From Sinorhizobium arboris LMG 14919 (GTDB lineage: Bacteria; Pseudomonadota; Alphaproteobacteria; Rhizobiales; Rhizobiaceae): a stretch of 64,000 nt of DNA. The stretch spans positions 2,658,058 to 2,722,057 of the forward strand of contig NZ_ATYB01000014.1 in the NCBI RefSeq assembly GCF_000427465.1, written 5' to 3'. A program made the translations under genes and the position numbers. A model generated the notes under the pieces. The model searched no databases. It was not told where the DNA came from and saw only the letters and a program-made list of their open reading frames with translations. This document shows, in pieces, positions 41,240 through 61,736 of this stretch. Each line of letters begins with the position of its first letter. Positions within the stretch are counted from its first letter, which is position 1.

Positions 41240-42502
41240 ATGACCATGCTGACGATCCGATACCGGGGAAAGGCGCTGCTTTCGCGTTTGCTTCGACTGG
41301 CCCCTGTCGGGGTGGGCGCGGCAGCCATGGTCATCGCCGGCTTCTTTGCCACTATGGCCGAGGCGCAGGAGCGCGTGCCCCGACGCAACGTGCTGCAGAG
41401 ACTCTTCGGCGTCTTCACGCCGCAAAGACGCGTCTACTATGAGGATCAGTACGATTTTCGCCGGCAGCCGCAGCCGCAGCGCATACAGAGGCGCCGGGCG
41501 CAGCCGTCGGAAGCAAGGCAGCCCCGCCCGAGCCGGGCCAAGCCGCAGCCCGCAGCGGCGCCGCCGCAGGCGCCGGTCGTCGTCGAGAAATCTCCGGACG
41601 CCAAAAAGGTCCTGGTTGTCGGAGACTTCGTTGCGGGCAGCCTTGGCGACGGTTTGAAGGTTGCTTTCGAAACGACGCCGGGCATCGTGATCGAGACGCG
41701 GGCCAACGGCTCCTCGGGCATCGTCCGCAACGACTATTTCGACTGGCCGAAGGCGCTGCCCGACTACATCAGGGAGTTCAAACCCTCCGTCATCGTCGTA
41801 AGCCTCGGCGCCAATGATCGCCAGATGATGCGGATCGGGGACGCGCAGGAAAAGTTCCGGACCGACGCCTGGACGGAGGAATACCGAAAGCGCGTCAGTG
41901 CGCTGGCGACGCTTGCGCGCAAGGACAATCTTCCGGTGCTCTGGGTGGGCATGCCGCCCTTCCAGTCGACATCCATGACCGCAGACATGGTCACGTTCAA
42001 CGGCATCTACCGCGAAGAGGTGGAGAAGATTGGCGGTCAGTTCATCGACATCTGGGACGGCTTCGTCGATGAGGAAGGCAAATTCGTTCTGACCGGCTCT
42101 GACATCAACGGTCAGCAGGTCCGCCTCAGGGGGTCGGACGGCATCAATCTGACGAAGGCCGGCAAGCGCAAACTGGCCTTCTATGTCGAGAAGGACATCC
42201 GCAAGCTGTTGGGCGAAGCGGCCGCGACCACGGACGTTCCTGGCGCGGAAGGTCTGAAGGACCTGGTCGTCAGCAAACCGCTTGCCAACGAGGATATCGT
42301 GAAGACGCAGCCGATCAGCCTTATCGACCCGGAACTGGACGGAGCGACCGCACTTCTCGGCGGCGATATGCCCCTCAAGAGTACGGGCAAGAGCCCGCGC
42401 GACCGGCTCATCGAAAAGGGAGAGGTTGTGGCCGCGCCGCCCGGACGCATCGACGATTTCCGGCTGACGAAGCAGGGGCCGGCGGGCAGGAATACCCGCT
42501 GA
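41240..42502 (+). CDS. DUF459 / SGNH-hydrolase fold envelope protein
   Basis: 420 residues. A hydrophobic N-terminal segment (about 15-38, ending MAEAQ) is followed by an Arg/Gln/Pro-rich linker (about 60-110) and a DUF459 domain from about 115: KVLVVGDFVAGSLGDGLKVA, the Gly-containing block SSGIVRNDYFDWP, and VIVVSLGANDRQMMRIGD. This is the SGNH fold, although the first-block Ser of true hydrolases is replaced by Asp/Phe-type residues, so enzymatic activity is uncertain. Its last 293 bases have a second, diverged copy at 55063-55355 on the far side of an accessory island. Confidence 0.85.
   Translation: MTMLTIRYRGKALLSRLLRLAPVGVGAAAMVIAGFFATMAEAQERVPRRNVLQRLFGVFTPQRRVYYEDQYDFRRQPQPQRIQRRRAQPSEARQPRPSRAKPQPAAAPPQAPVVVEKSPDAKKVLVVGDFVAGSLGDGLKVAFETTPGIVIETRANGSSGIVRNDYFDWPKALPDYIREFKPSVIVVSLGANDRQMMRIGDAQEKFRTDAWTEEYRKRVSALATLARKDNLPVLWVGMPPFQSTSMTADMVTFNGIYREEVEKIGGQFIDIWDGFVDEEGKFVLTGSDINGQQVRLRGSDGINLTKAGKRKLAFYVEKDIRKLLGEAAATTDVPGAEGLKDLVVSKPLANEDIVKTQPISLIDPELDGATALLGGDMPLKSTGKSPRDRLIEKGEVVAAPPGRIDDFRLTKQGPAGRNTR
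42210..42502 (+). repeat. Left copy of the DUF459 3'-end repeat flanking the island
   Basis: This block and 55063-55355 align without gaps over 293 bases, from TGGGCGAAG to the TGA stop. I count 15 substitutions: six scattered over the first 260 bases, of which five are synonymous, and nine in the last ten codons. Weak similarity continues about 25 bases beyond the stop. Here the repeat is the intact 3' end of the DUF459 gene. Confidence 0.95.
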
Positions 42503-42818
42503 TTGCGGAGTTGACGCCCGGAAAACCTAGCTGATTTCCGTCCATAAACGGTAGCCTTTCGGCAGAACTCGGACTTGGAAACCATGAGCTTGAGAAGGAA
42601 ATGGGCGACCCCCATATTGTGAGCGCGCAGGGCTCAAGCCCAACGTGCTTGCGCTTCGCCAACTTCCGGAAAAGCCCGAACCAGAAACGGTACTCTGGCG
42701 TGTCCACGCCGCGGTACGCCTCAAGAGCGCAGTAGGCGACCGCTGGCGGCGTCTTTGCCGTGCTCGTCCACCGCTGCGTCGATAGCAGCTTCTTCGGTAG
42801 GTCTCGCCAGTCGACCAT
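42408..42818 (-). CDS. Hypothetical protein at the island's left edge
   Basis: 136 residues from the ATG at 42818, which has a good ribosome-binding site (AAGGAGAG three bases upstream). It starts MVDWRDLPKKLLSTQRWTST and contains RKLAKRKHVGLEPCALTIWG and a Ser/Pro-rich stretch SFSSSWFPSPSSAE. I do not recognise a family. The last 32 codons run antisense through the 3' end of the DUF459 gene, so the natural C-terminus was probably lost or replaced at the island junction. The MucR remnant lies 70 bases upstream on the same strand. It may be a degraded gene. Confidence 0.35.
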   Translation of the reverse strand: MVDWRDLPKKLLSTQRWTSTAKTPPAVAYCALEAYRGVDTPEYRFWFGLFRKLAKRKHVGLEPCALTIWGSPISFSSSWFPSPSSAERLPFMDGNQLGFPGVNSAISGYSCPPAPASSAGNRRCVRAARPQPLPFR

Positions 42819-42887
42819 TTGCTCTCCTTTCTTCGCCGACATGCTCGCTTGCGATGACCACTCTCTGGCCGCGGCATCAGCCGAATT

Positions 42888-43217
42888 TCAGGCTGATCTT
42901 CTTGCGAGCAGGAGTGGGGCTTCAGCGGGCACTGATGCCGGTTTCTTTCCCAGCCCCGTCGCGCGTGCGAGTTCCGAGCGCTGTCGGGCATAGTTCGGAG
43001 CTGTCATCGGGTAGTCGGCTGGAAGCTTCCACTTTTCGCGATACTGCTCCGGCGTCAGACCGAACTTTGCCATGAGGTGGCGCTTGAGAGATGTGAACTT
43101 CTTGCCGTCGTCCAGGCAGAAGTCGTCTGCCACGGGTTTCTTGATCGGGACCGCGGGGCGTTGCTCCTCGGGCGCGGGCTCGGCTTTCGCCGGCCGAGCA
43201 TTTGATGGAATGCTCAA
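42888..43217 (-). pseudogene. MucR/Ros-family regulator remnant, N-terminally truncated
   Basis: The 109-codon frame contains KKFTSLKRHLMAKFGLTPEQ and YREKWKLPADYPMTAPNYA, unmistakably the C-terminal DNA-binding half of MucR/Ros proteins. The usual N-terminal 50 residues are missing, the only in-frame start is a TTG (43217), and a stop lies just upstream. The zinc-finger ligands are also altered: the second Cys is Asp (CLDD instead of CxxC) and the last His position is Phe (HLMAKF). MucR proteins repress exopolysaccharide and motility genes in rhizobia. This copy is probably not a normal regulator, although some Mesorhizobium homologues work with altered ligands. Confidence 0.65.
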
Positions 43218-43308
43218 GCATCGGCGCGGCTGTGGCAGATGGGTGGTTACCGTCCTCCCCTATCAGCCCCCCCTTGCGCCAGGGCCAAGCGACACCTGCG
43301 GAAATAGT

Positions 43309-46300
43309 CTATATCTCTCGAGTGGAAGTTCGCCTTGATTTTGTATTAGCGAGAACTTGGCGCCGCCTGTCCGAATGTGCGGCGAAATTGACTTCAGGCG
43401 CTTTTGATTCTCCCACCGAATGCCCGTACATCAATGCCTCGATGTGAGCAGCTTGCGAGGTCACCGTTGTATGGACGAAGAGATCCACGAGAGGAATTTT
43501 CACTTCGAAGAGGTCGGACAGTTGTCGTGCAAGTTCAGCGACCAAGATCGAGGAGCCACCTGCTGAAAAGAATGATTGCTGCAACGGCAGGTCGGCAATG
43601 TTCAGAATCGAAGACCAGACATCGGCTACCTGGTCGCGCACACTGCTATTTGCCGCCTTCCTTATCTTTATCGCCGCCGGTGGCCGCCGAGCCGCGATAG
43701 CCGGCAGAGCTGAGTAGTCGACCTTGCCGTTATATGTGAGCGGCATTCGTGAGAGATAGACGAACTCAGACGGGATCATGTAGTGCGGGAGAATGTTGCT
43801 GAGTGCCTTCCGAAAATGTTCATCGCGCACCCGGTCGGCAGCCCAGGTCAATGGCGCGGCGATTCTACCGCCACTTGGAATCGACTGGTGTGATCGCTCA
43901 AAAGCTGGCGAGAAGCTTCCAAGCGGAGTAACGGCTATGTCGATGTCGGCGCCCATGACCGGCTCGCTCCATCTAATGCAAACAGAGCGATGTTTGTTTT
44001 TTGCCCACATCCGGATCTCGTGGGGACCTAAATCGGCGAGCGCGTCCACGCCGGATCTTTCATCTCTGCCGTCGTAGTTCAAAGCCGGAGCATCCTCCAG
44101 AATTCGGCGGTTCGGTATCTTTCTCAGGATGAACGCACTCGGGGCGGAATCCAGCCACTGCGATAGGCGGTGGCCTTTTGAGGCAATGTCAATGAAGTCA
44201 AATACTTCGTTTACGTCGTGGTGTTGGCGGTCGTCTGAATCAAGATGCAAGACAGTATCGTAGCGAAATCGCGTCATCTCATCATTGCCGTCGCCGAGCC
44301 GCAAATCGATTTCAACGGCCGCAACACGCTTCAACCCTCTCGCTATCGTGTCAAATTCAGCAGGATCGAGCCACAGTTCGCCACGGCCAATCTCTTTTGC
44401 TCGGTTGCCAAGAACGGTATCCGAGAGCACGGCATTGGCCGAACGTATCTCAGCCGCCATGATGGATTTGAGGGAAGTGGCCGGAATATCGCCGATGATG
44501 ACCTTCCCGCCGTTTCTGCACGCCGCGATGGCTTCTCGCAAAACGAGGGACAGATAGTCCTTGTCCGGAAAATATTGCACGACCGAATTCAGCAACACCA
44601 CGTCGAACGGTTCGGAGACGCGCGCGCGCAGATCATGTGCAGCCGCGCAACTCAGTGACCACTGCGGCGACGATCCGACGCGATCCATCAAGCGGTTGCG
44701 AGCTGACTCTATGGCTGTGCTAGACAAATCGCATCCATGATACTTTGACAAACCCGCCAAAAGCAGGTGTTCCCCGAGCAAACCCACCCCGCATCCGACG
44801 TCGAGGACACTTTCCGGAGAAGATCGAAGAACGCGATCGGCGGTTGCGCGCGCCCAAGTTCTTACGGCTTGCTCTTCGATAGGGCTTCCGGTGAAGGTGG
44901 ACGTATATCCCGTTCCTTCCGACATCTCAGAAGCTTCTTGCAATCGATATGTGGCGTCCCAGACGGAGCCCCAACTCTCTATGGCCTGCGCACGACTTTG
45001 CTCGTCAGCGACAATGTACGCCACCAGATGCTTTAAACCTCCGTCGCCTTCGACGATTTTTACCGCAGACTGCATGACACCTGGCAAACGTTCGAGAACG
45101 TGCTCGATCTCACCGGGCTCGATGCGGAAGCCGTTCAGTTTGAGCTGGCGGTCTTTCCTCCCCACATATGCCAAGCATCCGCCGGAGCGCTCTTCAACGA
45201 TGTCGCCCGTCCGATATTCAAGCGCATCGCCATCGTCAGCCACGACGAACTTTCCCGCATTGAGGTCGGGTCGGCGGAAGTAACCGGCGGCGACACCAGG
45301 GCCAGTGATGCGGAGCTCTCCGGAGTTGTCACCTTCGGAAGCCGCTTCGATGGTGTAACCGGTTCCCGAGAGGGGACGGCCAATCGGTACGGACTTGGTG
45401 GGATCGACAAAGTCTTCGGCTGCAAGACGGTGGCCAAACGACCAGATCGTCGTTTCCGTTGGCCCATAAAGATTCCACGCAGCCCTCGAGCGATCGTGGA
45501 GAGTACGGGCCAGATCGAAAGGAAGGGCTTCGCCCCCGCAAAGAACGCCGACTTCGCAATCCTCAAACCAGCCGGACGAAACGATCATGCGCCACATCGC
45601 GGGTGTGGCCTGGACTAGGCATCGGTCTTGTCCTGCAACAAGGCGGATCAATTCCTCGCTGCTTTTCGACTCGTGGTCGTCGGCGAGAAGAATCGTTCCA
45701 CCGCGGGCTAGCGGGAGAAGCAGCTCAAGAACGGATATGTCGAAGCCAAATGTCGTAGCCGCAACCATTTTGCCCCAATCGCGAAAGTTAATGAGTTGAT
45801 CCACGGCGTCAACGAAGTAGGCGATGTTCCGGCGATGGACCATTACGCCTTTGGGACGACCCGTCGATCCGGACGTAAACATGATATAGGCCAGCGTTTC
45901 GTCATCGATCGCCGCTATTGGTAGAGCATAAACATCCTGTGCGGCGATCGAGCGGAGCGTAACCCGTGCGGGAGCTGGAAAGCTTTCCGAATCGTCGTCA
46001 TCCACAACCAGGAAATCGAGATCCGCCATTTCGGCTATGAGTTTGTTTCGTGCAGCTGGCGAGTCGACAGGCAAGGGAACAAAGGTGGCCCCAAGGGTGA
46101 GAACGGACAGCAGAGTGGCAACCAAGTCGGGCGAGCGCCTGAGATGAAGTCCCACACGTGATCCGTGCGAGACGCCAGCCGCGAGGAAGGTCGCCGAGAG
46201 TGCCGCTATGCGCTCGGCGAGGGCACCGTAACTGATGGTTTCACCATGAAACTCGATGGCGATTGCACGGGGGTCTTGCAGACCAGCCTCGTGGATTCTG

Positions 46301-46323
46301 TGCAGGAAGCTCAAGTCGCTCAT
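43309..46323 (-). CDS. Non-ribosomal peptide synthetase: adenylation (glycine)-methyltransferase-carrier protein
   Basis: 1004 residues, with GAGAGGGAAAG just upstream of the start. Adenylation core: A3 AYIMFTSGSTGRPKG (145-159), A5 NLYGPTETT (284-292), A7 YRTGDIV, A8 GRKDRQLKLNGFRIEPGE. A methyltransferase is inserted between A8 and A10 (about 440-840) with SAM loop VLDVGCGVGLLG (506-517). A10 is PLTYNGKVDY (861-870). A carrier domain follows, with its phosphopantetheine Ser in FFSAGGSSI (about 924). No condensation or thioesterase domain is present. The ten binding-pocket residues (195, 196, 199, 238, 261, 263, 285, 293, 294, 867) read D-I-L-Q-L-G-L-I-W-K, the known glycine code. It should load and methylate glycine as the starter for the PKS encoded upstream in the same operon. 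Confidence 0.93.
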   Translation of the reverse strand: MSDLSFLHRIHEAGLQDPRAIAIEFHGETISYGALAERIAALSATFLAAGVSHGSRVGLHLRRSPDLVATLLSVLTLGATFVPLPVDSPAARNKLIAEMADLDFLVVDDDDSESFPAPARVTLRSIAAQDVYALPIAAIDDETLAYIMFTSGSTGRPKGVMVHRRNIAYFVDAVDQLINFRDWGKMVAATTFGFDISVLELLLPLARGGTILLADDHESKSSEELIRLVAGQDRCLVQATPAMWRMIVSSGWFEDCEVGVLCGGEALPFDLARTLHDRSRAAWNLYGPTETTIWSFGHRLAAEDFVDPTKSVPIGRPLSGTGYTIEAASEGDNSGELRITGPGVAAGYFRRPDLNAGKFVVADDGDALEYRTGDIVEERSGGCLAYVGRKDRQLKLNGFRIEPGEIEHVLERLPGVMQSAVKIVEGDGGLKHLVAYIVADEQSRAQAIESWGSVWDATYRLQEASEMSEGTGYTSTFTGSPIEEQAVRTWARATADRVLRSSPESVLDVGCGVGLLGEHLLLAGLSKYHGCDLSSTAIESARNRLMDRVGSSPQWSLSCAAAHDLRARVSEPFDVVLLNSVVQYFPDKDYLSLVLREAIAACRNGGKVIIGDIPATSLKSIMAAEIRSANAVLSDTVLGNRAKEIGRGELWLDPAEFDTIARGLKRVAAVEIDLRLGDGNDEMTRFRYDTVLHLDSDDRQHHDVNEVFDFIDIASKGHRLSQWLDSAPSAFILRKIPNRRILEDAPALNYDGRDERSGVDALADLGPHEIRMWAKNKHRSVCIRWSEPVMGADIDIAVTPLGSFSPAFERSHQSIPSGGRIAAPLTWAADRVRDEHFRKALSNILPHYMIPSEFVYLSRMPLTYNGKVDYSALPAIAARRPPAAIKIRKAANSSVRDQVADVWSSILNIADLPLQQSFFSAGGSSILVAELARQLSDLFEVKIPLVDLFVHTTVTSQAAHIEALMYGHSVGESKAPEVNFAAHSDRRRQVLANTKSRRTSTREI

Positions 46324-46357
46324 ATCTTTCCCTCTCCGAGGTCGGCGTCGCAGCGAA

Positions 46358-47413
46358 CTATTGAGTCAATGCTTTCGAAACCCGAGTTTCGACCGAATCG
46401 GGCACCCATTTTTCCCAGTTGCTCCGGTAGTTTTTCAGGAAGTGGAGCGCCGTTTCTTCGGGGCTGGCCCTTTCTCGATGCATATAGGCAGCGAGTTCAC
46501 CCATGGTTTGCGTGCCAATGAACATCGAACGCAGGAAGCTGACGATGTCGGGATTATCCTCGACCATTTTCCGCGTGGCATATTTCAGGATTGGTATCGT
46601 CTCGTAGGCACATGCGCGCTCCGCCGGCACTCCGGGCTGGAACGGCGTCAGCACTTTTTCGATCGAGGCCCAGCAAGCTAATTCGTAAGGCGGCTCCTCC
46701 AGCAGCGTGAGATCGATCATGCTCGGAATGGCGCTGGGCGCCCAATAGTAGGTGACGAAAGGACGTCCGGCTTCGTATTCCTTGAGAACGATCTTGTTCA
46801 GTTCATTCTCGGTCGCTGGCTCGATCGAATTTAGCTCCTTATCCAAGCCATAAGTTGCAAGCTTGATGAGATTTATTTCCCTGCAGGCCCATCCGGGAAT
46901 GCAATTTACAAGCATCGCTTCTTTATCCGGATTGCTTTGTCGGAACGCCTCGGCATAGCGGGCGAGATCGGCAACACCTTTGAGGTCTGGCGCTATTGCC
47001 TTGATGCCGCGCGCGGAATCGCCCTTGATGACGTAGGTGGGAACATAGAACCCTTGGGAGGCGCTTTCATAGGTTTGCCCGAGTTCGACAATAGCGCCAG
47101 CGTCGACCTGTGCATTAACCCATTCGGCCATGAGGTTGTTGTACATTTCGAGGTTGACGTCCATGGTCCCGTTCTCCATCGCTGCCTGCATTTTTGGGAC
47201 ATTGGATTCGACATTGACAGCGTCGCGCTCAAAACCTTTGCTGATGATGTAGATGGCTATCGCATTGCTGATCTGTATGTTTTCCCAACCACCGTCGTAG
47301 AAGGTGATGGGTTTACGCCCATCATGCGCCCAGGCTGCCTGAGAATGCAGGATGCAACTCATCCCGATTGCGAAGAGGGTCGCGTGAATACGGGCCTTCA
47401 TCGTCGAATGCAT
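46358..47413 (-). CDS. Glycine betaine/carnitine-type ABC substrate-binding protein, orphan
   Basis: 351 residues. A signal peptide (about 5-29, ending AAWA) is followed by an OpuAC/ProX-type domain. Aromatic residues likely to build a quaternary-ammonium cage are present: Trp-43 in YDGGWENIQISNA, Trp-175 in CIPGWACREI and Tyr-Tyr-Trp 222-224 in TYYWAPSAIP. The family binds glycine betaine, proline betaine, choline or carnitine in the periplasm. No permease or ATPase gene is adjacent. The gene lies 21 bases after the PKS and 34 bases before the NRPS on the same strand, so it is co-transcribed with the biosynthetic genes, which points to a link between the pathway and a betaine-like compound. 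Confidence 0.88.
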   Translation of the reverse strand: MHSTMKARIHATLFAIGMSCILHSQAAWAHDGRKPITFYDGGWENIQISNAIAIYIISKGFERDAVNVESNVPKMQAAMENGTMDVNLEMYNNLMAEWVNAQVDAGAIVELGQTYESASQGFYVPTYVIKGDSARGIKAIAPDLKGVADLARYAEAFRQSNPDKEAMLVNCIPGWACREINLIKLATYGLDKELNSIEPATENELNKIVLKEYEAGRPFVTYYWAPSAIPSMIDLTLLEEPPYELACWASIEKVLTPFQPGVPAERACAYETIPILKYATRKMVEDNPDIVSFLRSMFIGTQTMGELAAYMHRERASPEETALHFLKNYRSNWEKWVPDSVETRVSKALTQ

Positions 47414-47434
47414 GGCAATCTCCGTTATAGACTC

Positions 47435-50400
47435 TCAGATGGAAGAAGAGACCTTGAATTCCGTTCTGCGGGCCTCATTGAGATGCTTCGCAAGCGTGCG
47501 CGAGGCGATCTCGATGAGGAATTGACTTTGGGTTTCCATAAAATAGTGGTCGCCCGGGCAAAAATGAGTGGTGAGGTGCGTGGTTGAGTGCGCCTGCCAT
47601 GCGAGAATGTGCTGACCGGTTGTATAGGGATCGGCCCGCCCCCCCAGTGCAGTAATGGGTACGGCGAGGGGTAACTTGGGCTGGTAAACGTATGTGTTGT
47701 TCAGCTGGTAGTCGGCTTTTATCACCGGCAGCATCAGGGAAAGAAGCTCGGGATCCCTGAACAGCGCCTTGTTATTCGCGAAGTTTACATCCTGAAGCAT
47801 GTCGATGAAGTCCTGATCGGTCGCTAGGCCGGAACGTGCGGCCGTGGCACCGAACTGAACGGCATCGATCGCAGCCTGGGCTTCAGTGTAGATTTGCGGG
47901 GCTCTCGAGCCTGCCACGAAGAGGTGTAGGGGCAGCAGGCCACATGCACGATGTAAATGATGGGTCAGTTCGAAGGCCTGCACCCCTCCGATGCAATGTC
48001 CAAAGAAGGCAAATGGCCTGTCGAGGTAGTCCGCCAGTACCGGCACCATCTCATCAACAAGCTCCTCCATCGTTTTGTGTGGAGATTCCCCGAGCCGAGA
48101 TCCTCGCCCTGGAAGCTGAACGATCGCGACTTCGATGTCTGAACCGAATCCGTCAGCCCACCCGTTGAAGACCGCAGGGCCACCGCCAGCATAGGCAAAG
48201 CAGACCAGTTTGAGCCGCGGATCGACGCCTTTCTTCGTGACGACAAGAGGTTCCCGCGTGGCAGGCACTGCCGCGACTCTTTGTGTCTTCAAGGACGTAT
48301 CGGCTTGGATTTTGTCCAGAACGAACTGTGCAATATCGCTGACGGAGGCTCCCGCGAACAGCGGCCCAAGGGGAAGGGTCACATCCAGTGATTTCAAGGC
48401 ATTTCGCAGTTCCAGTGTGGTGAGCGAATCGAAACCCATGCGATTAATTGGTACGTCTGTCGCAATGGTTTCCTGCGCTGCTCCGATTGTTTTTGCAACG
48501 ACCAAGGACACGGCGGCGGTGACGAACTTCTCCCGCTCTCCGTTCTGAAGCGCAGCCGCCTCTTCCTTGAAATGTCGCTTCATCTGCCGCGGCGTCTCGT
48601 GGACCTTCCCGTCGACCGCTACCTGCGATAGCAGCGGTGGCATCCGTCCACCGAACTGAGCGAGATAGTTGGTCCAATCGATCGGAAATGCGCCGTACAC
48701 ACCCGAGCGGCCGAGGAGCGAACCCAGTCTCGCCAGGCCCTCTTCCGGGGAGAAGGATCGAACCCCCATCGCCGACAATCGCGCTCTTTGTGGTCCGCTG
48801 AGCGTTGAGGACATTCCTTCGCCTTCCCAGGGACCCCAGCATATGGCAAGGCCGGGGAGACCTTCTCGAACCCGCCTTGTCACTATGCCTTCCATGGCCG
48901 CATTGGCGGCGACATAGGCAGATTGGCCCTTGAAACCCAGCATCGACGAGAGGGACGAAAAGCATACGAAGAAATCGAGATCGCGCCCTCGCGTATGTCG
49001 GTCGAGCGTGATCGTGCCTTGGAATTTCGGCCTCAGAGCCCTGCCGAGAGAATCATCCGAAACGTCGGGGAACATGCTGCTCTCGTTGACGCCCGCAGCA
49101 TGGAAGATTCCCTTCAGAGGAAAGCCGGAGGCGTCGATCCTCTCGAAGAGTAGCGCAATGTCCGTATCAGACGCCACATCGGCAGGCTCGAATCGGAGAT
49201 TTGGTGCTGCCATTTGCAGCGATGCAAGCTCGCGCCGCTTCACATCGTGGTCCACCGATCGACCGACGAGCACAATGTTTTTGGCTCCTTCATTCGCGAG
49301 CCATCGCGCGACCGACTTTCCTATGCCGCCAAGTCCGCCTGTGATCACGTAGGTCGCGTCGCCGTCAATCGCGATCGGCGACGTCTCCGCGAGTTCAATA
49401 TCTTGTAGTCTCGCCGCGAAGCTGCGGCCTGCGCGAAATGCGCTCTGGTCTCCGACTTCGCCTTTCAACAGACGGTTTACCGCCGTTTTGGTCGAGACAT
49501 CGTCTAAATCGACGAGGGAGCCCCAGATGTCGGGATGCTCGTTTGCGAACACCGTGCCTAGGGACCAGATGGCTGCCTGCGCAGCGTCGGTGGAGACGTC
49601 CTGTTCGCCGACGCTGACGGCGTTTCGAGTGACGAGATGCACACGGAAATCGAGCGAGCCATCCCATCTAGACATCTCGCGAAGAAACTCTGCCGTCTCA
49701 AAGATCGATTCCAGGGCGGCGTTTTCGTCCGCGGCTTCGGCAATCTCGCGCGGACAGGCCACATATATTACCTCGCACTTGGGAGGCGTTTCGCCTTCCG
49801 TGGCGTTGCGGATTAGGTATTGTACGTGCTCGACCTTCATCTCATCGACATACATGACGATCGGCCGTCGATCTCGCCATCTCCTTTCCGTTGTCCGGCC
49901 GATCTGCTGCTCAATGACCGTTGTTAACTCAGTTGCGGAGCTTCGGCGGGTGCCGCACAGCAGCAAGACATCCGGCGCAAATTGTCGTGGTGGTGGGATG
50001 TTTTCTTCCGTGACCCAGACGGTGCTGTGGAACCACGGTTCCGCCGGAGTATCGGGCGCCGGCCAGAACCGACGACGTTGAAAAGGATAGGTCGGAAGCG
50101 GAACGCGTCTCCGCTTCTTCTCCTTATATACTTCCCGCCACGCTAGATTGGCGCCGCCCTTGTACAGCTCCGCCAATGCGACGGCGTCATGCTCGCGATC
50201 ATCGACCGTATCGTTCAGTGCAGAGACCCAGGTGGTTTCTTCGCCTTCTGAATGGTCGCTAAGGCAGAGCTTCCCAAGGTTTGAGAGAATCGGACGGGGG
50301 CCGATTTCGAGGAAAATTTCCACCCCCCTCTGCAGTGCTGCTTCTACGCTTTGCGCAAATAATACCGGCTTGCGGAGATGATCGCACCAATATGCCGGGC

Positions 50401-52741
50401 TTGATATTTCCTGTGGCGAGATCGTGCCGGTTACATTCGTGATTATGGGCACCTTCGCGGGCGAGAATATCACGGTTTCTGCTACACCGGCGAATGCTGG
50501 AAGGATCGGCTCCATTAATGGGCAATGAGAAGCAACGGAAGCATTCACGATGGTGTTGGTAATCTCTCGGGCGCTTAAATCTTCCCGCAAGGCAATGATC
50601 TCGCCGGCAGCCCCGGAAACGACGACGCTGTTCGGCGCGTTGATTGCCGCAATCCATAGCTTGCCACCGCGCTCTGCGATGAGACGTGTGGCCTCCTCGG
50701 CGTTAAGCGCGACCGCCAACATGGATCCGGCGGGTTGAGCCTCCTGCATGAGCCGGCTGCGAGTTGCGACCAGGCGCAGTGCATCGCGAAAATCGACAAG
50801 CCCTGAAAGACACGCGGCGGTGTATTCCCCGAGACTGTGTCCAATCAGAACATCGGGTTTGATGCCGCGGCTCACCCAGAGTTGGGCAAGCGCATATTCA
50901 AAGGCCAGCAGCGCTGGTTGCGCGTAGCGCGCCTGATCAATCAGTGTAGTGGCGGAAGCAGCTGGAGAGATGATGTCGAAGAGATTTGTGCCGCAGGCTT
51001 GCTCCACAAGCGGGGCAGCGGTCTGAATCCAATGACGGAAGACGGGTTCGCAGTCGTAAAGCACCCGCCCCATTCCGACATACTGAGCACCTTGCCCTGG
51101 AAACAGGAATGCGATCTTGCCGGTACCGGTCTTCGCTACGCTGCTAACTGTCTTCGACAGGTGGTCGAAATGCTCAGCCATCTTTGAGCGATCTGACGCA
51201 ACAACAGCGAGACGATGTGGCAATGCCGCAAGCCCTGTGTTTGCGCTGTAAGCGATGTCCGGCAGCTTGGCGGTTCCGGAAGAGAGCAGGAAATCACGGT
51301 ATCTGGACGCCAAATCGCGCAGCGCCTGTTCCGAATGCGCTGATAGGGCGAGAACTTCTGGTTTCGAAGCTTCGGCAAGTTCGCCGGATGCCTTTCGCGG
51401 CGGGGCCTCCTCAAGAATGACGTGGACGTTGGTCCCGCCAACTCCCAACGAGGTCACGCCAGCGCGACGAGGCCCATCACTTATCCAGTCCAACGGCTCC
51501 GTATTGATGAAAAACGGTGTTCCTTCAAAGCTGATCTCGGGATTAAGCCCGTCGAAGTGGAGGGTGGGGGGAATCGTTCGATGTTGCAGGCTGAGGACGG
51601 CCTTGATCAGCCCGGCAATTCCGGCGGCTGCCGAAAGGTGGCCGATGTTCGTCTTGACCGCGCCCAAGACGCAGGTCGCCGGCTTTACGCGCGGACCTGC
51701 GAAGACTTCGGACAGAGCCCGCGCCTCGATCGGATCTCCCAAAGGTGTCCCGGTACCGTGAGTTTCGACATACGTTATGCTGTCGGGCGCGACACCCGCA
51801 TTTGAAAGGGCTTGCCTGATAACGTCGGCCTGCCCGCGTACGCTCGGCGCTCCAAAACTGGCCTTGTCCGCTCCATCGTTGTTGGCTGCGGAACCTCTGA
51901 TAACCGCATGGATGAAATCACCATCGGCGATGGCATCCTCGAGGCGCTTCAACGCGACCACACCAACACCGCTTGCAAATACGGTGCCGTCCGCCGATGC
52001 ATCAAAAGCGCGGCAATGCCCGTCGCTCGACACTATTCCGCCCGGTTGGTGGAGATATCCGATACCGTGAGGTACGAGAACCGATGATGCGCCCGCAAGC
52101 GCGATGTCGCACTCTCCCAATTGGAGACCCTGGCAGGCAAGATGAACCGCCAGAAGTCCCGTCGAGCAGGCGCTCTGGACATTGATGCTCGGTCCGCGCA
52201 GGTCGAGTTTAAAAGATGTCCTCGTGCAGACATAGTCCTTGTCGTTGCCCAGCATCGTGAGGAAACCGGACGCGGTGTCGAGATAACGATTGGTTTCGCC
52301 GTCCGCATTCTCCTGGGCATGATAATGGAGCAGATAGGTATTCGGACCTGCTCCCCCGTAAACGCCGACCAAAAGATCGTCGCGCCTTTGTAGTCCGCCG
52401 GCCGCTTCGAGTGCCTCCCATGCGCATTCCAAGAATAGACGGTGCTGGGGATCGGTTGTCTCCGCTTCCTTTGCTGTCATCTTGAAGAGGTCTGCATCGA
52501 ACTTGTCGAAATTCTCCAAGGCGGCTCCGGCCGGAATATAATCGGCGCCTTTTAGCGTGGCGTCTGGCACGCTATGTTGCCGCAGTCGTTCCTGGGATAT
52601 GCGGACGATGCTTTCGCGCTTTGCGATCAGATTTTCCCAGAAGGCATGCGTTGTGTCGGCGTCCGGAAACCGGCATGCAATACCCACAACCGCTACTTCG
52701 TTGCCTTGAAAATCATGTTTCATGACGTCGCTCATTTTCAT
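47435..52741 (-). CDS. Type I polyketide synthase KS-AT-KR-ACP-TE
   Basis: 1768 residues; the exact start is uncertain (ATGs at 52741, 52735 and 52723). KS (about 12-445): catalytic Cys-192 in VQSACSTGLL, His-328 in VETHGTGTPLGDP, His-368 in KTNIGHLSAAAG. AT (about 543-840): FPGQGAQYVGMG, GHSLGE with Ser-636, and VASH (736-739) at the specificity site, which is neither the malonyl HAFH nor the methylmalonyl YASH. KR (about 905-1365): structural half, then VITGGLGGIG and Tyr-1276 in GQSAYVAAN. ACP: Ser-1439 in GFDSLTTLEL. TE (about 1510-1755): GHCIGG with Cys-1583 instead of Ser, Asp-1704, and His-1732 in GDHYF. No DH or ER, so one extension with reduction to a beta-hydroxyl. It heads the operon with the binding protein and NRPS. 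Confidence 0.94.
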   Translation of the reverse strand: MKMSDVMKHDFQGNEVAVVGIACRFPDADTTHAFWENLIAKRESIVRISQERLRQHSVPDATLKGADYIPAGAALENFDKFDADLFKMTAKEAETTDPQHRLFLECAWEALEAAGGLQRRDDLLVGVYGGAGPNTYLLHYHAQENADGETNRYLDTASGFLTMLGNDKDYVCTRTSFKLDLRGPSINVQSACSTGLLAVHLACQGLQLGECDIALAGASSVLVPHGIGYLHQPGGIVSSDGHCRAFDASADGTVFASGVGVVALKRLEDAIADGDFIHAVIRGSAANNDGADKASFGAPSVRGQADVIRQALSNAGVAPDSITYVETHGTGTPLGDPIEARALSEVFAGPRVKPATCVLGAVKTNIGHLSAAAGIAGLIKAVLSLQHRTIPPTLHFDGLNPEISFEGTPFFINTEPLDWISDGPRRAGVTSLGVGGTNVHVILEEAPPRKASGELAEASKPEVLALSAHSEQALRDLASRYRDFLLSSGTAKLPDIAYSANTGLAALPHRLAVVASDRSKMAEHFDHLSKTVSSVAKTGTGKIAFLFPGQGAQYVGMGRVLYDCEPVFRHWIQTAAPLVEQACGTNLFDIISPAASATTLIDQARYAQPALLAFEYALAQLWVSRGIKPDVLIGHSLGEYTAACLSGLVDFRDALRLVATRSRLMQEAQPAGSMLAVALNAEEATRLIAERGGKLWIAAINAPNSVVVSGAAGEIIALREDLSAREITNTIVNASVASHCPLMEPILPAFAGVAETVIFSPAKVPIITNVTGTISPQEISSPAYWCDHLRKPVLFAQSVEAALQRGVEIFLEIGPRPILSNLGKLCLSDHSEGEETTWVSALNDTVDDREHDAVALAELYKGGANLAWREVYKEKKRRRVPLPTYPFQRRRFWPAPDTPAEPWFHSTVWVTEENIPPPRQFAPDVLLLCGTRRSSATELTTVIEQQIGRTTERRWRDRRPIVMYVDEMKVEHVQYLIRNATEGETPPKCEVIYVACPREIAEAADENAALESIFETAEFLREMSRWDGSLDFRVHLVTRNAVSVGEQDVSTDAAQAAIWSLGTVFANEHPDIWGSLVDLDDVSTKTAVNRLLKGEVGDQSAFRAGRSFAARLQDIELAETSPIAIDGDATYVITGGLGGIGKSVARWLANEGAKNIVLVGRSVDHDVKRRELASLQMAAPNLRFEPADVASDTDIALLFERIDASGFPLKGIFHAAGVNESSMFPDVSDDSLGRALRPKFQGTITLDRHTRGRDLDFFVCFSSLSSMLGFKGQSAYVAANAAMEGIVTRRVREGLPGLAICWGPWEGEGMSSTLSGPQRARLSAMGVRSFSPEEGLARLGSLLGRSGVYGAFPIDWTNYLAQFGGRMPPLLSQVAVDGKVHETPRQMKRHFKEEAAALQNGEREKFVTAAVSLVVAKTIGAAQETIATDVPINRMGFDSLTTLELRNALKSLDVTLPLGPLFAGASVSDIAQFVLDKIQADTSLKTQRVAAVPATREPLVVTKKGVDPRLKLVCFAYAGGGPAVFNGWADGFGSDIEVAIVQLPGRGSRLGESPHKTMEELVDEMVPVLADYLDRPFAFFGHCIGGVQAFELTHHLHRACGLLPLHLFVAGSRAPQIYTEAQAAIDAVQFGATAARSGLATDQDFIDMLQDVNFANNKALFRDPELLSLMLPVIKADYQLNNTYVYQPKLPLAVPITALGGRADPYTTGQHILAWQAHSTTHLTTHFCPGDHYFMETQSQFLIEIASRTLAKHLNEARRTEFKVSSSI

Positions 52742-52840
52742 CAAGTGAGAGTTCGTTTAGCTTCAGGAGATGTAACGGCAGGCTTTTCCCGCGGCTCAAG
52801 TCGCAAGAAGTGTGCTCAGCAGACGCTTTTTGGAGAGAAG

Positions 52841-53494
52841 ATGCTCCCGTTGAAAAAGGGTGTTGTTGGAGATGAGTGTGTTTATAGTTTCTATGACATC
52901 GGAAGTTTCGTATCCGGCAAGGAGCCAATCCCTGAAAGACTGCGGGTCCGTTTGCCGGCCGATGAGCTTCGCGAGACGAGCTTGGTGGTCGATGCCGCCG
53001 AACGAACGAGGCGGTTGGTGGCCAAAGCGATCTTGAGGGGGAACCTTGCCAACATTCTCGACGTTGAGCCGTCTTCGCTTGTCTTCGGCCGGGGGCCAAC
53101 GGGCAAGCCATTTCTCTCCACCCAGCGCTTTCAGTGGCTTCGATTTAACCTTTCGCACTCCGGTGATTTTGTAGCGACCGCAACGGGCCGCACTGAGCTT
53201 GGCATCGACATCGAGAGGCATCGTCTCGTAAGTGACGCCGGCGACTTGATGCACAGATATTTTTGTGAAGACGAGCATCAGTTGTTCCTCGGAACCGACG
53301 TCAGCAGCCAAATGGAAACGTTCTTTTCGCTGTGGACCCGTAAGGAGGCGCTTTTGAAGGCTATGGGAACCGGGTTCAGTCGCCTCCTCGACAGCGTTTC
53401 GGTGGTTCGAGATGACGTCATCGAAGGCAGTTGGAGAGTATGTTCCATCGTTGCACCCATCGGTTACTCCGCTGCAATTTCGTGGCACCTCTGA
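52841..53494 (+). CDS. Sfp-type 4'-phosphopantetheinyl transferase
   Basis: 217 residues from the ATG at 52841, preceded by GGAGAG. Signature motifs are FGRGPTGKPFL (about 86-96), LRFNLSHSGDF (104-114), ELGIDIERHR (about 125-134) with the Mg-binding Asp and Glu, and FFSLWTRKEALLKAMGTG (about 164-181). The enzyme would convert the apo carrier domains of the neighbouring NRPS and PKS to the holo form, which makes the locus self-sufficient. It is transcribed divergently from the PKS with a 99-base spacer and converges on the EamA transporter gene. Confidence 0.93.
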   Translation: MLPLKKGVVGDECVYSFYDIGSFVSGKEPIPERLRVRLPADELRETSLVVDAAERTRRLVAKAILRGNLANILDVEPSSLVFGRGPTGKPFLSTQRFQWLRFNLSHSGDFVATATGRTELGIDIERHRLVSDAGDLMHRYFCEDEHQLFLGTDVSSQMETFFSLWTRKEALLKAMGTGFSRLLDSVSVVRDDVIEGSWRVCSIVAPIGYSAAISWHL

Positions 53495-53520
53495 CGTAGA
53501 TCGGCTCAGCTTGTGTTTCG

Positions 53521-54447
53521 TCACTCCAAAGCAGGGGGTTGTGCTGCGATAGGGTGGCGACGAAGGCGCGGTCGCCACCCCAACTGAACTCCTAAGGTTC
53601 CCAACATAATCAAGGCCAACCCAGCCCATTGTGCCGGCTGAAGCGCTTTTCCGTACGCGAGCCAATCAACGAGGATCGAGACGAGGGGAAAAAGAAATGC
53701 GAGAACGCCAATGACCGGCGTCCGAAGGTGTGGGTACGCCGAAAACATCAGCACATACGCAATTCCCGTGTGCAAGACACCGAGGCATACGAGCCATTTC
53801 CAGGACGCACTTGGGACAGGCTGAAGAAGCTCTGCAAAAGGGGAGAGTATCAACGCGCCGACCAACGTCTGCATGAGCGTCGTGACCTCAGGCCGCTGTT
53901 CGCCCAAGCCTTTGCCAATGACCGTTCCGACCGAATACAAAAAGGCAGCGATGAGCGACAGCCCGACGCCGAGATACCAGGAATTTTCTTCCGGTACTGA
54001 AGTGCCAACGAAGCCGGTCGAGAGAACCAGTCCTGCGAATGCGAGGCCGATCCAGCATATCTCCGTGGGTTTTATTGTTTCCCTGAAGAGAGCAGTGCCA
54101 ATGAGGACGACGAAAAACGGTTGAATGTGATATATGATCGTCGCTGTACCGATCGTCGTATAGCCGTAGGCGCTGAAGAGAGCGACCGAGCTGCCGATGT
54201 TTCCGATACCTCCGACGGCGGCCAACAGCAGCAACTTGGCGGACAGTTTGGCCGGCTTCAGGTAGCCAAAGGTCGCGCACCAAGCCAGGAGGAACAGGGT
54301 TGCAAAGACGCACCGCCAGAAGACGGTCACAAAGGGCGGCAGAGCGCCTTGCACAGCGAAAAGACCGATAGTGCCAAAAATGACATTGGACAAAGCGAGA
54401 TTGAATGCAGGCAAATTCGCAATCTTCGCCATTCGCTCAAAATCCAC
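53521..54447 (-). CDS. EamA/DMT-family membrane transporter
   Basis: 308 residues with about ten hydrophobic segments arranged as two repeats of five, the EamA (DUF6) layout. Examples are NVIFGTIGLFAVQGALPPFV near the N-terminus and a second repeat beginning at NSWYLGVGLSLIAAFLYSVG. The family exports amino acids and other small metabolites. Adjacent position to the biosynthetic genes suggests export of the product, but that is inference. An in-frame ATG five codons downstream (54432) is an alternative start. It ends 27 bases from the phosphopantetheinyl transferase gene, convergently. Confidence 0.9.
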   Translation of the reverse strand: MDFERMAKIANLPAFNLALSNVIFGTIGLFAVQGALPPFVTVFWRCVFATLFLLAWCATFGYLKPAKLSAKLLLLAAVGGIGNIGSSVALFSAYGYTTIGTATIIYHIQPFFVVLIGTALFRETIKPTEICWIGLAFAGLVLSTGFVGTSVPEENSWYLGVGLSLIAAFLYSVGTVIGKGLGEQRPEVTTLMQTLVGALILSPFAELLQPVPSASWKWLVCLGVLHTGIAYVLMFSAYPHLRTPVIGVLAFLFPLVSILVDWLAYGKALQPAQWAGLALIMLGTLGVQLGWRPRLRRHPIAAQPPALE

Positions 54448-54617
54448 ATATCATCACAAAGTGATATGTGACACCTCTACGTAGGCGATGTCAATGACTG
54501 GATAACTAGAAGTAGCAGAAGCTATCGCTGGCATGCGGGCAGATCCCCGCAGATTGCAAATGCTCCAATATCTTACCTGGTACCCCCAGCCAAAAAAGCT
54601 ACAGGCTCCGAGGCTGA

Positions 54618-54887
54618 CGAGGGCCTTGCTCTGTCGCTGAACTGGTGGAGTTGACAGGTGCTTCCCAACCAAATGTCTCAAATCACCTGCGCAAGCGGAA
54701 TCACGACCTTGTAGAGTCTGAGAAGCGCGGACGTCTTGTCATATACCGGGTTGCCTCTCCAGCCGTTGCCGAAGTCATTGCCTCCTGTCTTAGGCGGCGA
54801 CGGGAGCTCAGGCCAGTACAACCATGCCCACGCCGGAGCCGTTGCGGAGGGCGAGAGCTTGCTACGATCATCTTGCAGGTAGCATAG
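54618..54887 (+). pseudogene. ArsR-type regulator remnant
   Basis: The frame after a stop at 54615 reads SVAELVELTGASQPNVSNHL then DLVESEKRGRLVIYRVASPA, the recognition-helix and wing region of ArsR-family winged-helix regulators. There is no start codon with a ribosome-binding site, the first 35 residues or so of a normal ArsR are absent, and the expected preceding residues (ADEG) appear in another frame, so a frameshift near 54620 is likely. It lies in the island's right part. The rest of 54448-55062 holds no gene I can support; an inverted repeat TGGGTC-N5-GACCCA is at 54964-54980. Confidence 0.55.
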
Positions 54888-55062
54888 GGGTTCGTGTGTT
54901 CAGGGGATTAGTCTAATCCACGATTTCCAAACCCTGTTTTCGCTGGGAAAATCTGTCAATCCATGGGTCAAATGGACCCAAAGTTTGCCAAACGGAAGCG
55001 TGGACGGCAGGCCGGGGGATCGGAAAAAGGTATTCCCGCTGAGTGGGGACGGCAGGTCGAAC

Positions 55063-55355
55063 TGGGCGAAGCGGCCGCGACCACGGACGTTCCTGGCGCG
55101 GAAGGTCTGAAGGACCTGGTCGTCAGCAAGCCGCTTGCCAACGAGGATATCGTGAAGACGCAGCCGATCAGCCTTATCGACCCGGAACTGGACGGAGCGA
55201 CCGCCCTTCTCGGCGGCGATACGCCCCTCAAAAGCACGGGCAAGAGCCCGCGCGACCGGCTCATCGAAAAGGGCGAGGTTGTGGCCGCGCCGCCCGGACG
55301 CATCGACGATTTCCGGCTGACGAAGCAGGGCCAACCCGGCAGCACCACACGCTGA
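55063..55355 (+). repeat. Right copy of the DUF459 3'-end repeat flanking the island
   Basis: This is a coding fragment for the last 96 residues of the DUF459 protein with its own TGA stop, about 95% identical to 42210-42502. It is not preceded by the rest of the gene: similarity stops abruptly at 55063, and upstream is unrelated sequence that happens to stay open in frame to 54963. It sits 98 bases from the end of gltD and faces it. Confidence 0.92.
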
Positions 55356-55453
55356 TGCGGAAATGAGGCTCGCCGGGAAACCGCCTCGCCCCACACATCC
55401 GGCCGCCCTTGCGACGGGATTCCTCCCGGAGGCGAGGGCTGTGCCGCAGCGAA

Positions 55454-57011: not shown

Positions 57012-61736
<4,725 letters not shown>

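Follow-up and report, generated by a model that had tools for sequence, protein, structure and literature searches.

A described system with closely related domain logic is SwnK of the fungal swainsonine pathway, whose starter is the proline analogue pipecolate (PMC5473758). As described there, SwnK is a single protein in which one A-T loading unit, a KS-AT and a ketoreductase join an amino acid starter to a polyketide unit; a terminal thioester reductase releases the chain, and the SwnH, SwnN and SwnR enzymes follow. In 2015, an unassigned type I PKS cluster was reported in Pseudomonas corrugata and P. mediterranea, approximately 40% similar to sequences of R. sullae WSM1592 and M. loti MAFF303099 pMLa (PMC4528175). 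Loci L086 and L128 of the present comparison come from these two rhizobial sources. The passages of that paper on the cluster give no domain reading, binding protein or product. Two PKS-NRPS hybrid clusters have also been described in P. mediterranea EDOX, with best MIBiG matches of 13% and 17% of genes and no product detected for either (PMC8477016). It may be guessed that one of the two is the cassette treated here. We know of no product for this cassette family.

The window is a stretch of 64,000 nucleotides from Sinorhizobium arboris LMG 14919. All five cassette genes were located between 43309 and 54447, with domains that clear the Pfam cut-offs (Table 1), and the layout of KS-AT-KR-ACP-TE, OpuAC protein and A-MT-PCP flanked by PPTase and EamA genes, as given in the preliminary description, was borne out. 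The PKS, binding protein and NRPS genes form one co-directional run on the minus strand, and their separation by only 21 and 34 bp predicts an operon. The PPTase open reading frame spans 52574-53494 (+), but its homologues (194-216 aa aligned) start within it, so the shorter stretch in Table 1 is the likely gene. The A-T-KS-AT-KR-T logic of SwnK is present, divided between two proteins, with an N-methyltransferase, a Cys thioesterase and a periplasmic binding protein that SwnK lacks. By Pfam, no terminal thioester reductase occurs in the synthase, and the thioesterase domain stands in its place. Chance or mis-called domains were rejected as an explanation, as the cut-offs are passed and the genes are conserved across other loci.

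Table 1. Features of the cassette and its island (window positions).
Feature	Position	Strand	Basis or remark
Genomic island with cassette, approximate limits	42504..55062	.	contiguous empty site in relatives; GC
Left direct repeat copy, 3' end of DUF459 gene	42210..42527	+	93% over 321 columns to right copy
Right direct repeat copy	55063..55382	+	pairs with 42210-42527; repeat ~320 bp
NRPS loading protein A-MT-A'-PCP, 1004 aa	43309..46323	-	Pfam; orthologues in 6 loci
Peptidyl carrier domain	43441..43635	-	PF00550 1.5e-12
N-methyltransferase domain between A motifs A8 and A9	43810..44976	-	5wmm 4.5e-27
Adenylation domain, main part	44983..46281	-	pocket letters DILQLGLIW
OpuAC-type periplasmic binding protein	46358..47413	-	PF04069 OpuAC, 1.8e-35
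PKS KS-AT-KR-ACP-TE, ORF 1769 aa	47435..52744	-	Pfam; likely ATG start 52723, giving 1762 aa
TEII-like thioesterase domain	47510..48211	-	3qmw 1.6e-37, RifR 1.2e-34, ObiF1 6.8e-07
TE nucleophile Cys1584 codon	47993..47995	-	Cys in 13/13 aligned synthases
Acyl carrier domain	48320..48502	-	PF00550 3.2e-06
Ketoreductase	48824..49357	-	no LDD, no Trp fingerprint
Acyltransferase	50198..51109	-	GHSLGE; VASH
Ketosynthase	51410..52702	-	active Cys + both His present
Sfp-type phosphopantetheinyl transferase (PPTase)	52841..53494	+	PF01648 8.6e-17; start by homologues
EamA/DMT transporter, putative exporter	53521..54447	-	PF00892 2.2e-32
ArsR-type regulator gene, decayed by stops and frame breaks	54488..54913	+	tblastn with A. 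vitis regulator, 9e-24

The cassette genes all lie within one island of approximately 12.5 kb (about 42.5-55.1 kb), which has a copy of the 320-bp direct repeat at either boundary and whose GC content is 56.9% versus 64.2% and 63.7% on the flanks. The site is empty and contiguous in all three relatives compared (L125-L127). The best explanation of these sequence features is that the cassette has been moved horizontally on a mobile island. To our knowledge, a hybrid line with one amino acid and one extension rarely forms a complete unit that is both mobile and plant-associated.

The cassette core also occurs in Agrobacterium vitis, on three plasmids of Rhizobium and in a pair of Pseudomonas genomes. 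Four rhizobial or agrobacterial loci besides the window keep the full set of five genes, and the Pseudomonas genomes keep three of the five (41.5-47.9% identity), while NRPS orthologues are 41.5-66.7% identical in six loci. A one-off layout was therefore rejected. The earlier remark that no characterised rhizobial locus has such a layout needs qualification, since the layout recurs in rhizobia and the 2015 paper mentions the family in one sentence. At 1e-150, the NRPS query matched 1 of 394 genomes sampled from the window's family, its own; the binding-protein query at 1e-60 likewise found only the own genome in samples of the order (1/397) and class (1/385). Samples around other loci gave 2/398 for the genus of a Pseudomonas locus and 1/87 for the family of a Pseudovibrio locus. 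A first search of 60 relatives gave six matches, with full-protein coverage only in the window's own genome and the A domain alone (37-40%) in the others. When genome contigs were profiled, only A. vitis exceeded 41% identity among the best 80 of 267 candidates.

In R. sullae the cassette is plasmid-borne, with nodC, nodB and a nodA-family gene a few kb away, and the Pseudomonas lineages with the cassette include plant pathogens. This nod-adjacent plasmid, the Sinorhizobium-like island and the occurrence in A. vitis and Pseudomonas suggest a possible role of the product at the interface with plants. The relatives in rhizobia and plant-associated Pseudomonas point to a small-molecule family that is uncharacterised and may be carnitine-like. 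Next to the cassettes of Pseudomonas and Breoghania, no PPTase was recognised; tblastn is weak evidence on this point, since it also missed annotated Mesorhizobium PPTases.

In the NRPS, the methyltransferase occupies residues 450-838, with the AMP-binding portion before it and LPHYMIPS and NGKVD motifs after it. The domains of the A-MT-PCP order proposed earlier are present, but the methyltransferase interrupts the A domain, part of which follows it. It aligns over approximately 340 residues with 5wmm (4.5e-27; second-best match 4.8e-05), which we take to be the N-methylating interrupted A domain of TioS; Pfam assigns it to general methyltransferase families only. This homology supports its membership of the NRPS N-methyltransferase family and, with it, the predicted N-methylation of the starter. 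The likeness to TioS-type domains lies in the homologous insert between A8 and A9, whereas here a free-standing module that lacks a C domain delivers to a PKS. The pocket letters are identical to those of 5u89 in the alignment, and we take them to be a glycine code, with 5u89 and 4zxh both presumed to activate glycine. Glycine is thus supported as the predicted substrate, as is the single amino acid starter of the preliminary description. A text search of the literature for the pocket code found no paper.

The acyltransferase motif is VASH or FASH in the aligned rhizobial and agrobacterial clade and HAFH in the Pseudomonas, Breoghania, Mesorhizobium and BT03 relatives. As VASH and FASH are presumably FabD-like, and other relatives have HAFH, the single malonyl-type extension suggested before is preferred; methylmalonyl extension, considered because of VASH, is less likely. 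At the LDD position of the ketoreductase, NES, TES or NEN is found in the rhizobial and agrobacterial sequences and VED or VQD in the others. With neither LDD nor the Trp fingerprint, the configuration of the hydroxyl is not called. The domain set supports the predicted ketoreduction and small product.

The binding protein has an onium-binder fold together with the 3-4 aromatic cage residues sought. Fold comparison and alignment place the cage at W43, Y91, W175, Y222 and W224, as retained from DMSP and betaine binders, which supports the betaine-type character predicted earlier. Of 120 binding proteins listed, 34 entered the alignment; P0136, a fragment, was among those excluded. Its "cassette-type" group numbered 12, five of them with no PKS/NRPS link seen; the link came from locus DNA in four others and from equal-sized contigs in three. 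The cage is nearly as well kept in the 22 less similar relatives (W43 in 20, W175 and Y222 in 22, W224 in 21) and so marks the family rather than a special tie to the product. The onium binders DmpX, ChoX, ProX and TmoX, as compared, are alike in fold and cage; CaiX, of the same group, resembles the present case in its separation from the permease, CbcWV, with which it works. These binders are encoded next to catabolic or permease genes, whereas the gene here is part of an operon for an assembly line. Neither the cassette genes nor those of their neighbours in the window that were tested include an ABC permease or ATPase, and the regulator adjoining EamA has decayed into a pseudogene, so that "self-contained" was too strong a term for the locus. 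Near the A. vitis cassette, and outside it, lies an ABC ATPase gene (L008:107-868). Breoghania likewise has ABC genes and a family 3 binding protein close to its cassette, on the opposite strand.

Taken jointly, these features point to the following pathway, to which about even credence is given. The NRPS would load glycine on its own PCP, and the inserted methyltransferase would add one, two or three methyl groups to the amine. The free-standing PKS would condense this aminoacyl unit once with malonyl, the ketoreductase would supply the beta-hydroxyl, and the Cys thioesterase would release the product as an acid or ring. The core would be an N-methylated 4-amino-3-hydroxybutanoyl unit, a small zwitterionic metabolite. 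EamA would export the product and the periplasmic protein would bind it for recapture or retention, its cage being suited to alkylated ammonium, with any uptake through a permease encoded elsewhere. The sequence itself shows the genes with their domains and active-site residues, their conservation and the island, whereas substrate, number of methyls, chemistry of release, ligand and direction of transport are inferred. The binding protein is an independent hint at product chemistry, and both synthases are of a size that allows direct testing.

A somewhat unlikely outcome is that the thioesterase closes a ring on the hydroxyl supplied by the ketoreductase, giving a beta-lactone as in ObiF or, from a secondary amine, a gamma-lactam such as 4-hydroxy-1-methylpyrrolidin-2-one; the Breoghania and Mesorhizobium relatives would then make hydroxypyrrolizidinone-like or lactone products. 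The domain is much nearer to the type II thioesterases 3qmw (presumably RedJ) and RifR than to ObiF1 and, unlike ObiF1 and SulM, with which overall similarity is low, is fused to a PKS. Its nucleophile is nevertheless Cys in all 13 synthases aligned (without M. huakuii, whose PKS is split, and Mesorhizobium sp. 131-2-5), and the Asp of its GGRADP motif aligns with that of RifR. As described, this pairing of Cys with the RifR-type Asp position is tied to the closing of a four-membered ring by ObiF and SulM (PMC6668435, PMC11298585), while AB3403 is given as a Cys thioesterase in which Asp keeps its usual position and for which ring chemistry is not known (PMC11298585). A neutral lactam would have no need of an onium cage. 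Since Cys in place of Ser in a RifR-like frame leaves hydrolysis unassured, the free acid envisaged in the preliminary description is one option only.

It is quite unlikely that the binding protein imports a host-plant betaine and is merely carried along. Its fold and cage are those of general betaine, DMSP and choline binders, and annotation and tblastn found no binding protein in the 24-25 kb of DNA examined around the sister synthases of Mesorhizobium and Rhizobium sp. BT03. However, its gene lies in the operon in all seven N-methyltransferase cassettes compared, in two gene orders. It recurs in Breoghania, where the synthase and EamA gene are kept and the loading module has no methyltransferase, so the partnership does not depend on N-methylation. 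A further metagenome lineage has PKS and binding protein on contigs both 32453 long. The pockets of Breoghania, Mesorhizobium and BT03 read D-V-Q-x-H-A-Q-V-V (fourth letter alignment-dependent), which we take to resemble proline codes without being identical. These relatives and the partly plant-associated hosts add to the likeness with SwnK as described.

Within the N-methylated hydroxybutanoyl reading, the boldest form is a de novo carnitine synthase, which is distinctly unlikely: glycine would be trimethylated to a betaine thioester, malonate-extended and ketoreduced to carnitine or its beta-lactone, with a dedicated carnitine/betaine-type binder. Carnitine is 3-hydroxy-4-trimethylammoniobutyrate, with a trimethylated amine and an (R)-3-hydroxyl. 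Among the papers listed, no title or opening of an abstract indicated an assembly-line route to carnitine or N-methylated 4-amino-3-hydroxybutyrate, most subscription journals lying outside the search. Were the product carnitine or a mimic, assembly lines would connect with osmoprotection, acyl-carrier or signalling metabolism. Carnitine itself would mean an assembly-line route to a central metabolite in plant-associated bacteria, and a family of mobile one-plus-one lines in which a swappable loading module sets the amine.

A degenerate or silent cassette in this strain is very unlikely: the ArsR-type regulator, an open gene in A. vitis with annotated counterparts in R. sullae and R. etli, is disrupted in the window and its decay may mean silence, but since ArsR proteins usually repress, expression could instead rise with its loss, and the other five genes are open at full length with catalytic residues intact.

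In kind, the cassette is a hybrid assembly line. The five genes that the preliminary description had placed at 43309-54447, encoding an EamA transporter, a phosphopantetheinyl transferase (PPTase), a PKS, an OpuAC-type binding protein and an NRPS, are all found there, on a 3.68-Mb contig of the 6.85-Mb genome. The gltB gene in the window shares 94.4% identity with a Sinorhizobium meliloti record. The NRPS protein has the architecture A-MT-A'-PCP, in which the adenylation (A) domain is split by a methyltransferase (MT) inserted between motifs A8 and A9. The PKS is arranged as KS-AT-KR-ACP-TE, with the catalytic signatures present. A second NRPS adenylation domain lies elsewhere in this genome (G000), on a small 4.6-kb contig (G000:C7 3191-4540, locus L007).

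Coordinates of features in and around the cassette (window positions)
Feature	Position	Remarks
Direct repeat, left copy	42210-42527	3′ end of upstream DUF459 gene; ~320 bp
PKS start	52723	most likely start
PPTase start	52841	most likely start
Broken ArsR-type regulator copy	54488-54913	between EamA and right repeat, adjoining EamA
Direct repeat, right copy	55063-55382	93% identical to left copy
tRNA-Leu call (ARAGORN)	61545-61626	on the opposite strand to gltB; likely spurious

In the alignment, the A-domain pocket letters are DILQLGLIW in 6/7 loci and DILQIGLIW in 1/7. When the pocket region alone is searched against the PDB, the top two entries are 4zxh and 5u89, whose A domains we take to activate glycine; the nine pocket letters of 5u89 are identical to DILQLGLIW, presumably the standard glycine code. 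A text search of the literature for this code gave no match. The closest matches to the whole A domain are LgrA entries, with pocket letters that differ from those of the cassette. By homology, the MT is an NRPS N-methyltransferase, and on glycine the amine is the usual target of methylation.

It is proposed that the NRPS would load glycine, which would be N-methylated while on the carrier, condensed once with malonate, reduced and released. The product would then leave through the exporter and be retained or recovered by the binding protein. The domain content, read by the established logic of assembly lines, gives the steps through the beta-hydroxyacyl stage; beyond this stage, we infer release, export and recapture. 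The AT motifs point to a malonyl extender. The window's KR is intact, but the rhizobial clade lacks both KR stereochemical fingerprints.

The TE has its nearest matches in two type II enzymes, 3qmw and RifR, and its nucleophile is Cys in 13/13 synthases aligned. In the ObiF report, a TE whose catalytic residue is Cys and whose triad is RifR-like yields a beta-lactone (PMC6668435); the report on SulM groups Cys and a moved Asp with closure of a four-membered ring (PMC11298585). The cassette TE has this Cys as well as the moved Asp, which makes ring closure an alternative to hydrolysis that must be taken seriously.

The Breoghania branch offers a domain swap made by nature: a loading module with a proline-like pocket and no MT precedes the same synthase and binding protein and the same type of transporter. 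The Breoghania genome (G1576) encodes an A-PCP protein and, after it, a PKS with 41% identity, a binding protein with 48% and an EamA transporter. Provided that the pocket is read correctly, the two loading modules have an N-alkylated amine in common, which could be what the cage of the binding protein recognises. Proline gives a secondary amine. Glycine with a single methyl group would be the simplest parallel, and this speaks against a carnitine reading. The product amine may still be quaternised, since the binding-protein family serves mainly quaternary and tertiary onium compounds. The KR domain of the Breoghania PKS (L098 3561-8978) carries GASGALA in place of the window's GGLGGIG, and its nucleotide-binding loop may be weakened.

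The order EamA-PPTase-PKS-binding protein-NRPS is complete, at 48-81% protein identity, in A. vitis CG118 (L008), R. sullae pWSM1592_2 (L086), R. etli 8C-3 pRsp8C3a (L087) and R. gallicum R602 (L088). In R. sullae, nodC, nodB and a nodA-family gene are found a few kb away from the cassette (L086 19000-27500); the plasmid that carries it is typed as conjugative. Among the best 30 of 99 matches listed from an NRPS search of the plasmid collection, these three Rhizobium records (L086, L087, L088) rank highest (55-56% identity) and the fourth reaches only 31.9%. Two Pseudomonas genomes (G454 and G568) have EamA-NRPS-PKS-binding protein, an order unlike the rhizobial one, with 41.5-47.9% identity for the last three proteins; close NRPS homologues carry species names such as P. 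corrugata, P. mediterranea, P. cichorii and P. capsici. The cassette is rare, being found in 1/394 genomes sampled from the window's family and 2/398 from the genus of one Pseudomonas locus.

Mesorhizobium japonicum pMLa, M. huakuii and Rhizobium sp. BT03 form a sister branch with a GntR regulator, A-PCP and PKS; the 24-25 kb fetched around these pairs contain no binding protein. The pairs (L128, L129, L130) are plasmid-borne and read A-PCP plus KS-AT-KR-ACP-TE; the M. huakuii PKS is divided between two overlapping frames. Near the BT03 pair (L129 15806-20662) are a KamA-family radical SAM gene and aminotransferase genes.

In 2015, a comparative study of P. corrugata and P. mediterranea likened a Pseudomonas PKS cluster to R. 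sullae WSM1592 and M. loti MAFF303099 pMLa, from which L086 and L128 come; the portion of that paper available gives no domain reading or product for the cluster (PMC4528175). The nearest characterised logic known to us is that of SwnK (PMC5473758). To our knowledge, the combination of an N-methylating loading module, a Cys TE and an onium-type binding protein is new.

The cassette lies on a mobile island bounded by the pair of 320-bp direct repeats. In 3/3 relatives fetched (G006, G003, G002) the site is empty, the DUF459 gene being continuous with the gltD side and the repeat single-copy. The GC content of the inserted 12.5 kb is 56.9%, with flanks at 64.2% and 63.7%. The neighbouring genes tested in the window include no recognisable integrase or transposase. 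The ArsR-type regulator is intact in A. vitis, as an open gene with an ArsR HTH, and is annotated also in R. sullae and R. etli 8C-3.
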